Positions 58,195 through 64,000 of a stretch of DNA of 64,000 bases are shown piece after piece. Origin of the DNA: Streptomyces sp. NBC_00178 (lineage in GTDB: Bacteria > Actinomycetota > Actinomycetes > Streptomycetales > Streptomycetaceae); contig NZ_CP108143.1 in assembly GCF_036206005.1 (NCBI RefSeq), positions 2,232,001 through 2,296,000 on the forward strand, written 5' to 3'. Each line of letters begins with the position of its first letter. Within the stretch, counting starts at the first letter, position 1. The notes under the pieces are model-generated. The model saw only the letters and a list, made by a program, of their open reading frames with translations, did no database searches and had not been told where the DNA came from. The position numbers and the translations under genes are program-made.

Positions 58195-58676
58195 GGGTTG
58201 CCTCCTGATCATGTTTCGGAAAATGCTTCAGCCACGCGCGTGCGCGGGGCATTGGCCGTAGTCCACACGGGCTCGGCGAATCGCGCAAGTACCCGGCGTC
58301 CGAGACCGCCTGAACGGTGACGTTCCCTGCCACGTCGCCGCTGTGTCCGGCATGTCTCCTGCGGGCCCGGAAAAGGAGTCCGGACCCTTTACGTCCTTCC
58401 TCAGCTTATGCCGTTTCGCTCCGCCATTCGGATTCGAACGGGCTTCGGGAACGCGTGGACGGGCCGGGCGTATGGTTGCGGTTCGGGCCGGACCGTCCCC
58501 GCGATGCTGATACTCGTGCCCTGGACGCGGCCTCGGCGAACCTTGTGTTACCCCACAGTAGAGGTGACGTTTGGATCCTCGCGGTACACGATGGAGGCGG
58601 CGTACAGCAGCCGCCCCGGGGGTACGTTCCCCGCAACCAGGCCCTGAAGAGCACCACCGAACAGCGAAGGAACAGC
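58195..58676. other. Divergent intergenic region between DUF3052 and aceE
   Basis: About 480 bases with promoters expected for both genes. A TAGAGG at about 58558 could be a -10 for aceE but no good -35 is evident. A short open frame (58408-58647) has no ribosome site and no protein-like composition. No riboswitch or operator is clear. Confidence 0.4.
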
Positions 58677-61418
58677 GTGGCTTCCGGATCAGATCGCAAC
58701 CCGATCATCATTGGCGGCCTTCCGAGCCAGGTCCCGGACTTCGATCCCGAAGAGACCCAGGAATGGCTCGACTCCCTCGACGCCGCCGTCGACGAGCGGG
58801 GCCGTGAGCGGGCCCGCTATCTGATGCTCCGGCTCATCGAGCGCGCGCGGGAGAAGCGCGTCGCCGTGCCGGAGATGCGCAGCACCGACTACGTCAACAC
58901 CATCGCCACGAAGGACGAGCCCTTCTTCCCCGGCGACGAGGAGATCGAGCGCAAGGTCCTCAACGCGACCCGGTGGAACGCCGCGGTGATGGTCTCCCGC
59001 GCCCAGCGTCCCGGGATCGGGGTCGGCGGCCACATCGCCACCTTCGCCTCGTCCGCCTCGCTGTACGACGTGGGCTTCAACCACTTCTTCCGCGGCAAGG
59101 ACGACGGCCGCGGCGGCGACCAGATCTTCTTCCAGGGCCACGCCTCCCCCGGCATCTACGCCCGCGCCTTCCTGCTGGACCGGCTCAGCGAGGCCCAGCT
59201 CGACGGCTTCCGCCAGGAGAAGTCCAAGGCCGGGCACGCGCTGTCCAGCTATCCGCACCCGCGGTCGATGCCGGACTTCTGGGAGTTCCCGACGGTCTCG
59301 ATGGGCCTCGGCCCCCTCGGCGCGATCTACCAGGCGCGGATGAACCGCTACATGGAGGCGCGCGGCATCGCCGACACCTCCGACTCGCACGTCTGGGCCT
59401 ACCTCGGCGACGGCGAGATGGACGAGCCGGAGTCGCTCGGCCAGCTCTCCATCGCCGCCCGCGAGGGCCTGGACAACCTCACCTTCGTGGTGAACTGCAA
59501 CCTGCAGCGCCTGGACGGGCCCGTACGCGGCAACGGCAAGATCATCCAGGAGCTGGAGTCCCAGTTCCGCGGCGCCGGCTGGAACGTCATCAAGCTGGTC
59601 TGGGACCGCTCCTGGGACCCGCTGCTCGCGCAGGACCGGACGGGCATCCTGGTCAACAAGCTGAACACGACTCCCGACGGCCAGTTCCAGACGTACGCCA
59701 CCGAGACCGGCGCGTACATCCGGGAGCACTTCTTCGGTGACGACCCGCGGCTGCGCGACATGGTCAAGGACATGTCCGACCACCAGATCCTGCACCTCGG
59801 GCGCGGCGGGCACGACCACCGCAAGGTCTACGCGGCGTACGCGGCGGCCAAGGCCCACAAGGGCCAGCCGACCGTGATCCTGGCGCAGACGGTCAAGGGC
59901 TGGACCCTCGGCCCGAACTTCGAGGGCCGCAACGCGACCCACCAGATGAAGAAGCTCACGGCGGACGACCTCAAGCGCTTCCGTGACCGTCTGCACATCC
60001 CGATCGCCGACAAGCAGCTCGAGGACGGCAACCCGCCGTACTACCACCCGGGCCGCGACTCGGAGGAGATCCAGTACATGCACGACCGCCGCCAGGGTCT
60101 GGGCGGCTACGTCCCGACGCGGGTGGTGCGGGCGAAGCCGCTGCCGCTGCCCGACGACAAGGCGTACGCGACCGCGAAGAAGGGTTCGGGTCAGCAGTCG
60201 ATCGCCACGACCATGGCGTTCGTCCGCATCCTGAAGGACCTCATGCGGGACAAGGAGATCGGCAAGCGTTTCGTGCTGATCGCGCCCGACGAGTACCGCA
60301 CCTTCGGTATGGACGCGTTCTTCCCGAGTGCGAAGATCTACAACCCGCTCGGCCAGCAGTACGAGTCGGTGGACCGTGAGCTGCTCCTCGCGTACAAGGA
60401 GTCGCCGACCGGCCAGATGCTGCACGACGGCATCTCCGAGGCGGGCTGCACCGCCTCGCTGATCGCCGCGGGTTCCGCGTACGCCACGCACGGCGAACCG
60501 CTGATCCCGGTGTACGTCTTCTACTCGATGTTCGGTTTCCAGCGCACCGGTGACCAGTTCTGGCAGATGGCCGACCAGCTCTCGCGCGGCTTCGTGCTGG
60601 GCGCGACGGCCGGGCGCACGACGCTGACCGGTGAGGGTCTCCAGCACGCGGACGGCCACTCGCAGCTCCTCGCGTCGACGAACCCCGCCTGTGTCTCCTA
60701 CGATCCGGCGTTCGGGTACGAGATCGCGCACATCGTGAAGGACGGTCTGCGCCGGATGTACGGCGGCGCCCCCGAGGAGAACGAGGACGTCTTCTACTAC
60801 CTCACCGTCTACAACGAGCCGATCCAGCACCCCGCCGAGCCCGCCGACGTGGACGTCGAGGGCATCCTCAAGGGTGTGCACCGCCACCACGCGGGCGAGG
60901 CCGGCCGCATCCCGGCCCAGATCCTGGCGTCCGGTGTCGCGGTCCCGTGGGCGGTCGAGGCGCAGCGGATCCTCGCCGAGGAGTGGGACGTGAAGGCGGA
61001 CGTCTGGTCGGCGACCTCCTGGAACGAGCTGCGCCGTGAGGCCGTGGAGGTGGAGCGCCACAACCTGCTCCACCCGGAGGAGGAGCAGCGCGTCCCCTAC
61101 GTGACGCGGAAGCTGTCCGGCTCCGAGGGCCCGTTCGTCGCGGTCTCGGACTGGATGCGTTCCGTGCCGGACCAGATCGCGCGCTGGATCCCGGGCACCT
61201 ACCAGTCGCTGGGCGCGGACGGATTCGGCTTCGCCGACACCCGTGGTGCGGCGCGGCGCTACTTCCACATCGACGCGCAGTCGATCGTGCTGGCCGTGCT
61301 CACCGAGCTGGCCAAGGAAGGCAAGGTCGACCGTTCGGCGCTGAAGACGGCGCTCGACCGGTACGAGCTGCTGGACGTGGCCGCGGCGGGCCCCGGCCCG
61401 GCGGGCGGCGACGCGTAA
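58677..61418 (+). CDS. aceE: Pyruvate dehydrogenase E1 component (homodimeric)
   Basis: 913-residue thiamin-diphosphate enzyme. The TPP motif is [20 protein letters not shown] (GDG near residue 243) to [14 protein letters not shown]. The C-terminal part has [39 protein letters not shown] and [21 protein letters not shown]. Length and motifs match AceE. It decarboxylates pyruvate and acetylates the E2 lipoyl domain. The GTG start has AAGGA. It is alone on its strand, with a hairpin after it. The E2 and E3 genes are elsewhere, as is common in Streptomyces. Confidence 0.97.
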
Positions 61419-61515: not shown

Positions 61516-61944
61516 TCAGTTCTCCCAGATCTTGAACGCCCTCACCGTGTAGGGCGAGCGGGGTACCCAGGTGCCGCTGCCCGGGTACGTCTCGAACTCA
61601 CCGGTCTCCGCGCATTCCCCCGACTGGTAGGTCGTGACGGGACGGCCGGTGCGGTTGACGAGTGCCTGGGCATGCCGGCCGGCCGGGAGGGGGACGCAGC
61701 TCTCGATGTCGACGGTGGACAGCTCGTGGGCCTGGGTGGCTCCCGAGAAGCCCGGCTTCGTCCAGAGGCATAGCTCGCCCGCGCCGCAGGGCGCGAGTCC
61801 CGCGGGCGCGGCCTGCGCGGCGTTGCGGGAGCGCTCGTGACCCGGGGGCCCGTGGTGGACGGCGGGCGCGGCGCCCGAGGCCAGGGCCGTGGCCGGGACG
61901 AGCGCGGTGGCCGCCAGGGCGGCGGCGAGGACGGTCGTACGCAT
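61516..61944 (-). CDS. Secreted peptidase-inhibitor-like protein (family I36)
   Basis: 142-residue secreted protein. The signal peptide ends near ALASGA (about residue 24). The mature C-terminal domain has Cys pairs and the crystallin-like beta layout of inhibitor family I36 (CGAGELCLWTKPGFSGATQA, ESCVPLPAG, YQSGECAETGEF). The ATG at 61944 has GGGGG. Members inhibit metalloproteases or act as surface proteins. It is convergent with aceE and separate from the MFS gene, with its own hairpin beyond the other end. Confidence 0.82.
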   Translation of the reverse strand: MRTTVLAAALAATALVPATALASGAAPAVHHGPPGHERSRNAAQAAPAGLAPCGAGELCLWTKPGFSGATQAHELSTVDIESCVPLPAGRHAQALVNRTGRPVTTYQSGECAETGEFETYPGSGTWVPRSPYTVRAFKIWEN

Positions 61945-62152: not shown

Positions 62153-63763
62153 TCAGATGTGTCCTGCGCCCATCCCTGCCTCGGCGTTCGCGCCGCGCTT
62201 GGTGAGGGTGGCGACGAGTGCGGCGACCACGGCGACGATGCCCGCGACCATGAAGGCGGAACTCATTCCGGACACGAACGTGTCATGGGCGACGTCCGAG
62301 ATCTTCGCCGCGATCTCCGGCGGGGTGCCCGGGGCGATCGGCGGCATGCCGACCTTGATGGCGGAGGATGCCTGGTCCAGCTGGTCCGGGGTGGCCGGCG
62401 GGAGCTCGGCGGACTTCCAGTTGTCGCCGAGCGTCGCGTCGACCCGCGAGGCCATCACGGCGCCCAGCACGGCGGTGCCGAGGCTTCCGCCGACCTGCAT
62501 GGCGGCCTGCTGGAGCCCGCCCGCGACGCCGGAGAGCTCCATCGGCGCGTTGCCCACGATGACCTCGGTGGCCCCGACCATGACCGGCGCGAGACCGAAG
62601 CCGAGGAGCGCGAACCAGAGGGACATGGTCAGCGTGCCGGTGCCGACGGTCAGCTGCGACATGCCGAACATGGCGACGGCGACGGAGACCATTCCGCCGA
62701 CGAGCGGCACGCGGGGACCGAACCGGGTGATGGCGGCGCCGGCGAGCGGCGAGCCGACGATCATCATCCCGGTCAGCGGCAGCAGGTGCAGGCCGCTGTC
62801 GACCGGGCTCATCCCGTGGACGTTCTGGAGGTAGAAGGTGACGAAGAACAGGCCGCCCATGAAGGCGAACGCCATCAGCACCATCAGGACCACACCGGCC
62901 GAGAGCGGCACCGAGCGGAACATGGCCAGCGGGATAAGCGGCTCGCGCACGTTCTTCTGGGAGAGCGCGAACACGACGAACAGGACGAGCGAGGCGCCCA
63001 GGAAGCCGAGGGTCCTCGCGTCGCCCCAGCCCCACTCGGAGCCCTTGATCAGCGACCAGATCAGGCAGAACATCGCCTGGGACAGCAGGACGATGCCACC
63101 GATGTCGAAGGACCTCGGCGCGTTGGCCGCGCGGTGGTCCCTGAGGATCACGAGTCCGAAGACGAGCGCGATCACGCCGACGGGCACGTTGATGAAGAAC
63201 ACCGACTGCCAGCTGACGTGCTCCACGAGCACACCGCCGAGGATGGGCCCGCCCGCGGTCGAGGCGCCGATCACCATGCCCCAGATGCCGATCGCCATGT
63301 TCAGCTTCTCGGCGGGGAAGGTGGCCCGCAGCAGGCCGAGCGCCGCGGGCATCAGCAGCGCGCCGAAGAGGCCCTGCAGCACGCGGAAGACGATCACCAG
63401 GAACACGCTGTCGGACAGGCCGATGGCCGCGGAGGCGGCGGCGAATCCCGCGATCCCTATCAGGAACGTCTGACGGTGGCCGAAGCGGTCGCCGAGTTTG
63501 CCGGCGGTGATCAGGGAGACCGCGAGGGCGAGCATGTAGCCGTTGGTGATCCACTGGACGTCGGCGAGCGAGGCGCCGAGGTCCTGCTGGATGACGGGGT
63601 TGGCGATCGCGACGATCGTGCCGTCCAGCGCCACCATCATCACGCCGATGGCGACGGCGAAGAGCGTCAGCCACGGGTGGCCGCGCAGCCCTTTCGCCGG
63701 TGCGGGGACGACGGTGTCCTGAGGCTCCCGCGGCGCCTTCTCGACTGTGGTCTGACTAGTCAT
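62153..63763 (-). CDS. DHA2-family MFS drug exporter (EmrB/QacA type)
   Basis: 536-residue exporter with 14 helices. Motif D1 (LDGTIVAIANPVIQQDL), motif A (GKLGDRFGHRQ), motif C (GGPILGGVLVEH) and a large loop near residue 460 match EmrB/QacA. It likely expels drugs or endogenous metabolites. No ribosome site precedes the ATG at 63763; a good promoter ends about one base before it, so the mRNA is probably leaderless. A palindrome in the promoter and a divergent TetR gene suggest induction by a ligand. Confidence 0.93.
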   Translation of the reverse strand: MTSQTTVEKAPREPQDTVVPAPAKGLRGHPWLTLFAVAIGVMMVALDGTIVAIANPVIQQDLGASLADVQWITNGYMLALAVSLITAGKLGDRFGHRQTFLIGIAGFAAASAAIGLSDSVFLVIVFRVLQGLFGALLMPAALGLLRATFPAEKLNMAIGIWGMVIGASTAGGPILGGVLVEHVSWQSVFFINVPVGVIALVFGLVILRDHRAANAPRSFDIGGIVLLSQAMFCLIWSLIKGSEWGWGDARTLGFLGASLVLFVVFALSQKNVREPLIPLAMFRSVPLSAGVVLMVLMAFAFMGGLFFVTFYLQNVHGMSPVDSGLHLLPLTGMMIVGSPLAGAAITRFGPRVPLVGGMVSVAVAMFGMSQLTVGTGTLTMSLWFALLGFGLAPVMVGATEVIVGNAPMELSGVAGGLQQAAMQVGGSLGTAVLGAVMASRVDATLGDNWKSAELPPATPDQLDQASSAIKVGMPPIAPGTPPEIAAKISDVAHDTFVSGMSSAFMVAGIVAVVAALVATLTKRGANAEAGMGAGHI

Positions 63764-63770
63764 GCGCTGG

Positions 63771-63799
63771 AGATTATGTCAGCCACTGACAGTCGACAA
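63771..63799 (-). promoter_or_regulatory. Exporter promoter with TetR-type palindrome in the spacer
   Basis: On the minus strand, TTGTCG (63794-63799) and TAATCT (63771-63776) have an ideal 17-base spacer. Inside it lies TGTCAG-CCA-CTGACA (63777-63791), a perfect palindrome. A repressor bound there would block polymerase. The -10 is seven bases before the ATG of the exporter. Confidence 0.78.
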
Positions 63800-63878
63800 A
63801 CCAATTCACAAGACGGTAACCGTCATGTAGCTCACAGGTAGGCTGATCTGCGCAAAGCAGTGGAAAGAGGTCCAGCAC

Positions 63879-64000
63879 GTGACACGCAGGCAGACACCGG
63901 GCCCCCCTCCTCCCGGGGCCCCGGCCGGATTGCGCGAGCGCAAGAAGGCGCGCACCCGTGAGGCTCTGCTGCGGGCCGCTCTCGGACTCTTCGCCGCCCA
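63879..64000 (+). CDS. TetR-family regulator, N-terminus only
   Basis: Starts at GTG 63879 (TRRQTPGPPPPGAPAGL, then RERKKARTREALLRAALGLF) and runs off the right edge. The first part of a TetR helix-turn-helix (RERKKARTREALLRAAL) is clear. AGAGG lies in front of the start. It is divergent from the DHA2 exporter, so it is the probable repressor that binds the palindrome at 63777. Only about 40 residues can be seen. Confidence 0.85.
   Translation, partial: MTRRQTPGPPPPGAPAGLRERKKARTREALLRAALGLFAA

Follow-up and report, generated by a model that had tools for sequence, protein, structure and literature searches.

The window, i.e., the whole 64-kb stretch of DNA that was analysed, is part of a 7.38-Mb Streptomyces genome. 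At its end lie two divergent genes, one for an exporter and one for a regulator, with start codons (63763 and 63879, respectively) that are 115 bp apart:

62153–63763, minus strand: exporter gene encoding a 536-aa DHA2/EmrB-type MFS transporter, assigned from its open reading frame and profile scores
63879–64000, plus strand: start portion of a TetR-family gene (222 aa, GTG start) that extends beyond the end of the window, assigned from PF00440 and PF17754, both over their cut-offs

The exporter scores 296 bits against TIGR00711, which describes the DHA2/EmrB efflux family and has a cut-off of 230, and it is therefore a member of this family. Its best named match in the profile search is TcmA, and a designation as TcmA (NF000025) was rejected, as the score of 757 bits falls below the curated cut-off of 999. 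The TetR protein combines a TetR_N domain (PF00440) with a C-terminal domain of the MftR type, TetR_C_14 (PF17754), and its designation as MftR (TIGR03968) was likewise rejected, at 82 bits and far below the equivalog cut-off of 225. No possible start codon lies between an upstream in-frame stop and the exporter ATG, and the next one downstream, a GTG at codon 40, falls inside the first transmembrane segment as read by eye, so that the start codon at 63763 is not in doubt. Two further genes lie close to the exporter. A large gene on the plus strand (58317–61418) has a translation that reads as the E1 component of pyruvate dehydrogenase, and just downstream of the exporter, on the minus strand (61516–61944), a 142-aa cysteine-rich protein is encoded, the translation of which has a signal-peptide-like start and the look of a peptidase inhibitor.

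The DNA immediately before the exporter start is organised as follows:

63794–63799, minus strand: exporter -35 element, TTGTCG here and TTGTCA in most relatives, from the sequence and its relatives
63777–63791, no strand: predicted operator site 1, TGTCAG-NNN-CTGACA, which takes up the promoter spacer, from an inverted-repeat search and conservation
63771–63776, minus strand: exporter -10 element, TAATCT here and TANNNT in every orthologue scored
63764–63770, minus strand: CCAGCGC, the sole bases separating the -10 element from the ATG, a gap of 6 or 7 bases in 136 of 136 loci

Read along the minus strand, the order is TTGTCG, ACTGTCAGTGGCTGACA, TAATCT, CCAGCGC and ATG. The original prediction had a -35 and a -10 element 17 bases apart, a palindrome between them and the -10 element seven bases before the ATG, and each part of this arrangement is found exactly on the minus strand, with the hexamers at 63799–63794 and 63776–63771, a spacer of exactly 17 bases (63793–63777), the palindrome at 63791–63777 and CCAGCGC at 63770–63764. 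The palindrome, TGTCAG-TGG-CTGACA, has perfect arms (6/6) and abuts the -10 element. When at most one mismatch is allowed, it is the sole match to TGTCAGNNNCTGACA in the 64-kb window, where shuffled sequences give a mean of 0.08 matches. A scan for sigma-70 promoters returned none at the exporter start, with a scanner that demands 9 of 12 E. coli-like matches and does not apply the Streptomyces rule, which is TANNNT together with a loosely conserved -35 element (PMC4895711). Because the criteria of the scanner are E. coli-like, its empty result is not counted against the exporter promoter.

To see how far this arrangement is kept, relatives of the TetR protein were collected, with 80 named genome contigs and sampled genomes as the sources, and the upstream DNA of each exporter was anchored on the ATG. 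The divergent TetR/exporter pair was compared over 136 distinct Streptomyces loci, this locus included. In all of them the palindrome lies in a spacer of 17 or 18 bases, the exporter starts with ATG, and the gap between a TANNNT hexamer and this ATG is exactly 6 or 7 bases. The first 98 distinct sequences all have the left arm TGTCAG and an ATG start; the spacer is 18 bases long in 86 of them and 17 in 12, and the gap from the -10 element to the ATG is 6 bases in 54 and 7 in 44. The arm columns of site 1 are 99–100% identical, with the exception of one A/T position, whereas the mean identity over 129 fourfold-degenerate columns in the exporter gene is 75%, and 3.9% of these columns reach at least 97%. 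Related sequences share descent, so the locus counts are not independent, and it is the contrast with synonymous sites that serves as the control. One locus from another genus of the family (L166) was outside the scored set, its alignment having begun at residue 13; by eye, the DNA upstream of its exporter reads TATTGT, 6 bases and ATG.

That the palindrome and the hexamers are chance matches in a sequence of unusual composition might be argued from the shortness of the six-base arms and from the several inverted repeats of such size in the stretch. This reading is extremely improbable, given an invariance across the genus that is far above that of synonymous sites and that persists in other families. 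Judged by this comparison, the operator and the promoter hexamers are not due to chance, being kept nearly unchanged, base by base, throughout the genus. The earlier proposal of a TetR operator that blocks the promoter thus has strong comparative support, from arms that are invariant or nearly so where fourfold-degenerate positions are 75% identical.

The short distance between the -10 element and the ATG bears on how the exporter mRNA would be translated. The 20 bases before the ATG form a duplex with the anti-Shine-Dalgarno sequence of only -0.8 kcal/mol, and in the relatives the same 20 bases give -1.9 kcal/mol against -2.9 kcal/mol for shuffles, i.e., a weaker pairing than for shuffled sequence. 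A Shine-Dalgarno core precedes the exporter ATG in 1 of 98 relatives, in agreement with the earlier statement that a ribosome site is lacking. Transcription is predicted to start, very probably, at the ATG or within 1–2 bases of it. The class of leaderless mRNAs is defined by a 5' leader shorter than about 9–10 bases, and membership in it is here predicted from the gap between the -10 element and the ATG. About 21% of primary starts in S. coelicolor yield leaderless mRNAs (PMC4895711), and in the Streptomyces leaderless mRNAs, as here, TANNNT is placed for a start at AUG, which makes up 76% of leaderless starts (PMC4895711).

The exporter mRNA could instead have a leader, with its promoter further upstream and with the hexamers near the ATG being operator or coincidence. 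That the pump can be made in this way is seen in four relatives from two other families (L170, L172, L192 and L195), which keep the TetR/pump pair and, between the -35 and -10 elements, a palindrome of this type, and in which the distance from the -10 element to the exporter start is 28–56 bases by eye. To exemplify, L170 has TTGACA-AGTGTCATCGAGTGCCA-TAATTT, with L172 alike, and L192 has TTGTCA-TCTGTCAGCTCCTGACA-TAAATT, with L195 alike. The leaders of these four carry Shine-Dalgarno sequences of the GAGGGG or AGGGGG type. They lie, however, between the same -10 element and the start codon, and such a leader is absent in Streptomyces, where TANNNT stands 6–7 bases from the ATG in 136 of 136 loci with no ribosome site. 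A longer mRNA is for these reasons quite unlikely, and the leaderless exporter transcript, as originally proposed, is strongly supported by the comparison, since the distance from the -10 element to the ATG stays at 6–7 bases in Streptomyces. The leader is absent in two genera of the family to which this genome belongs, and because the four relatives from two other families retain a leader with a Shine-Dalgarno sequence, the leaderless exporter looks specific to Streptomycetaceae. In the simplest reading, an old promoter-operator block has persisted while the Streptomycetaceae line has lost the leader, for which the four outgroup genomes are suggestive.

The other half of the intergenic region contains a second palindrome and the candidate signals of the tetR gene:

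63811–63825, no strand: putative operator site 2, with the core palindrome GACGGTAACCGTC (63812–63824), from conservation at a fixed distance
63793–63798, plus strand: candidate tetR -35 element, TCGACA here and TTGACA in 91 of 136 loci, from conservation
63817–63822, plus strand: candidate tetR -10 element P2, TAACCG here and TAACTG in 91 of 136 loci, within site 2, from conservation
63839–63844, plus strand: alternative candidate tetR -10 element P1, TAGGCT, conserved in most relatives with a longer intergenic region
63862–63870, plus strand: tetR Shine-Dalgarno sequence GGAAAGAGG, from the sequence and its relatives

Site 2 sits in an imperfect 21-bp palindrome (63808–63828), and the distance between the centres of sites 1 and 2 is 34 bp here and in 97 of 98 relatives. 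In the relatives site 2 reads TGACAGTTACYGWC, with a half-site in common with site 1. When it is scored against the pattern TGWCRGNNNCYGWCA, at least 13 of 15 positions match in 90 of 98 relatives, and a best score of at least 13 is reached in about 2% of shuffles. In the present genome both arms have changed in step with respect to the commonest form, from CAG/CTG to CGG/CCG, so that the palindrome is kept. Site 2 may thus be a second, degenerate operator over the tetR promoter region.

Both predicted operators are located between tetR and the exporter gene, and the palindromes overlap both promoter regions, of which the tetR promoter is the less certain. The candidate tetR -35 element overlaps the exporter -35 element on the opposite strand, and TAACTG (P2) comes 18 bases after the TTGACA block on the plus strand. 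By consensus P2 is a weak candidate, because TAACTG is without the usual final T. In most species, including this one, the tetR start lies some 56 bases beyond the P2 hexamer and is preceded by a Shine-Dalgarno sequence. Six species (L186, L187, L194, L197, L198 and L199) have a shorter intergenic region, in which tetR can start only at an ATG 6–7 bases after P2; for L198 an upstream TTG is listed as well, but this TTG lies before the promoter. In these six, tetR may be leaderless too, and because of them P1 is not taken as the only tetR promoter. One group within Streptomyces (L105, L107, L108, L110, L112, L113 and L118) carries an 11-bp tandem duplication (GTAGCTCACAC / GTAGCTCACAG) between site 2 and the tetR -10 element, which shifts P1 about one helical turn away from site 2.

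Several observations tie the operators to the adjoining TetR gene. The TetR protein was found in 265 of 296 Streptomyces genomes (about 90% of those sampled), and in 20 genomes without it a close homologue of the pump was absent, with only paralogues of 44–47% identity in four of them. Five of five tested Streptomyces TetR proteins with less than 200 bp to a divergent neighbour repressed that neighbour (PMC3511530). In the whole genome, the relaxed pattern TGWCRGNNNCYGWCA occurs in 11 places, of which only two are of the TGWCAG type, and from these numbers a wide regulon for the operator is not indicated. One of the two is this locus and the other lies beside another TetR gene, where (L124:1431–1545; G000 C1 near 3909745) a gene for a 190-aa TetR protein is divergent from an NAD-dependent epimerase-like gene and the intergenic region has two operators of the same class, TGGCAGTGCCTGACA and TGACAGGCACTGACA. 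At the gene of a paralogous TetR protein with 37% identity (L008), the operator was not found. A likeness also exists to MftR of mycobacteria, which has the same C-terminal domain family (PF17754) and an operator with identical arm spacing: the footprinted MftR operator contains GGCA-N5-TGCC within the palindrome T-N2-GGCA-N5-TGCC-N2-A (PMC8728441), to be compared with the TGNCA-N5-TGNCA geometry here. MftR differs in that it controls mycofactocin genes, and the present protein is far below the MftR cut-off.

A possible further input to this DNA is suggested by S. coelicolor, where binding of ScbR and ScbR2 to the SCO2373 ('tcmA') promoter was seen in EMSA and TTACTGACTCGTGAATTGGTTTGTCA was the site predicted for it (PMC4595836). 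This sequence aligns with the DNA that separates site 2 from the exporter -35 element:

63794–63819, minus strand: segment matching the predicted ScbR/ScbR2 site of SCO2373 at 22 of 26 positions by eye, with the EMSA in S. coelicolor performed by others

Since the SCO2373 promoter segment fits the conserved block (63819–63794 here), SCO2373/SCO2374 are the probable orthologous pair, an equivalence that is drawn from the 26-base promoter segment together with annotation. The expression of SCO2373 changes little in an scbR mutant (fold change 0.906) and is listed with a fold change of 1.325 in the ScbR2 table (PMC4595836). In the main texts searched, neither a TetR operator nor a transcription start is reported for SCO2373/SCO2374. 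With ScbR and ScbR2 binding at the probable orthologous promoter, part of the conservation may be due to a regulator other than TetR.

Consider, then, the case where the spacer palindrome mainly serves such a regulator, for instance a ScbR/ScbR2-type gamma-butyrolactone receptor, and where the TetR protein has its target elsewhere or controls nothing but its own gene. In addition to the EMSA result, this case is favoured by four ScbR-type regulators over the family cut-off that are encoded in this genome. Yet the predicted ScbR site lies between the operators and excludes the site 1 palindrome, and the ScbR motifs, with a TTTSTT core, are unlike TGTCAGNNNCTGACA. Sites 1 and 2, furthermore, share a half-site and adjoin this TetR gene, and none of the 20 genomes that lack it yielded a close homologue of the pump. 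Control of site 1 mainly by another regulator is, from this evidence, unlikely.

With good though not complete confidence, the intergenic DNA is read as controlling an autoregulated TetR/exporter divergon in which the pump mRNA is leaderless; binding, repression, ligand release and the exact start of transcription are inferred. The proposed sequence of events is that a TetR dimer would bind operators of the TGWCAG-NNN-CTGWCA type. When bound to site 1, it would occupy the spacer between the exporter -35 and -10 elements and keep RNA polymerase out; when bound to site 2, 34 bp away, it would cover the tetR promoter region and limit its own synthesis. A ligand, probably a substrate of the pump, would free TetR from the operators, and polymerase would then start the exporter mRNA at the ATG or within 1–2 bases of it, to be translated without a leader. 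The original prediction is supported in its two main points, the operator that would block the promoter and the leaderless transcript, and was incomplete in what it left out, namely site 2, the overlap of the divergent -35 elements and the published binding of ScbR and ScbR2.

The closest known systems are of the same design. In the Tn10-type tetR/tetA system the repressor and efflux genes are also divergent, and two 15-bp palindromic operators cover both promoters (summarised in PMC3511530); the present locus differs in operator sequence, in having a DHA2 pump and in the predicted leaderless pump mRNA. TcmR of Streptomyces glaucescens is, by the title of Guilfoile and Hutchinson 1992 (cited in PMC2277422), a TetR-family repressor that is divergent from the DHA2 exporter TcmA and binds an intergenic operator, whereas the exporter here is below the TcmA cut-off and belongs to a near-universal chromosomal pair. 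A more far-reaching account, which is tentative and on balance somewhat doubtful, holds that the promoter-operator block predates Streptomycetaceae, in which the pump leader with its Shine-Dalgarno sequence was lost under an unchanged promoter, that the divergent promoters share -35 DNA, that TetR and gamma-butyrolactone receptors read adjoining DNA, by which the pump would be tied to antibiotic-stage signalling, and that tetR is leaderless in one species group.

The divergon is accordingly a known and ordinary kind of switch, the mechanism of which is not new, and it is more conserved and richer than first described. A near-universal, uncharacterised Streptomyces pump becomes a defined and testable switch, with named operators, a predicted transcription start and a published hint of input from hormone receptors. 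Across families, this repressed promoter is followed by a leader in some and lacks one in others, which makes a natural case for asking why Streptomyces has many leaderless mRNAs.
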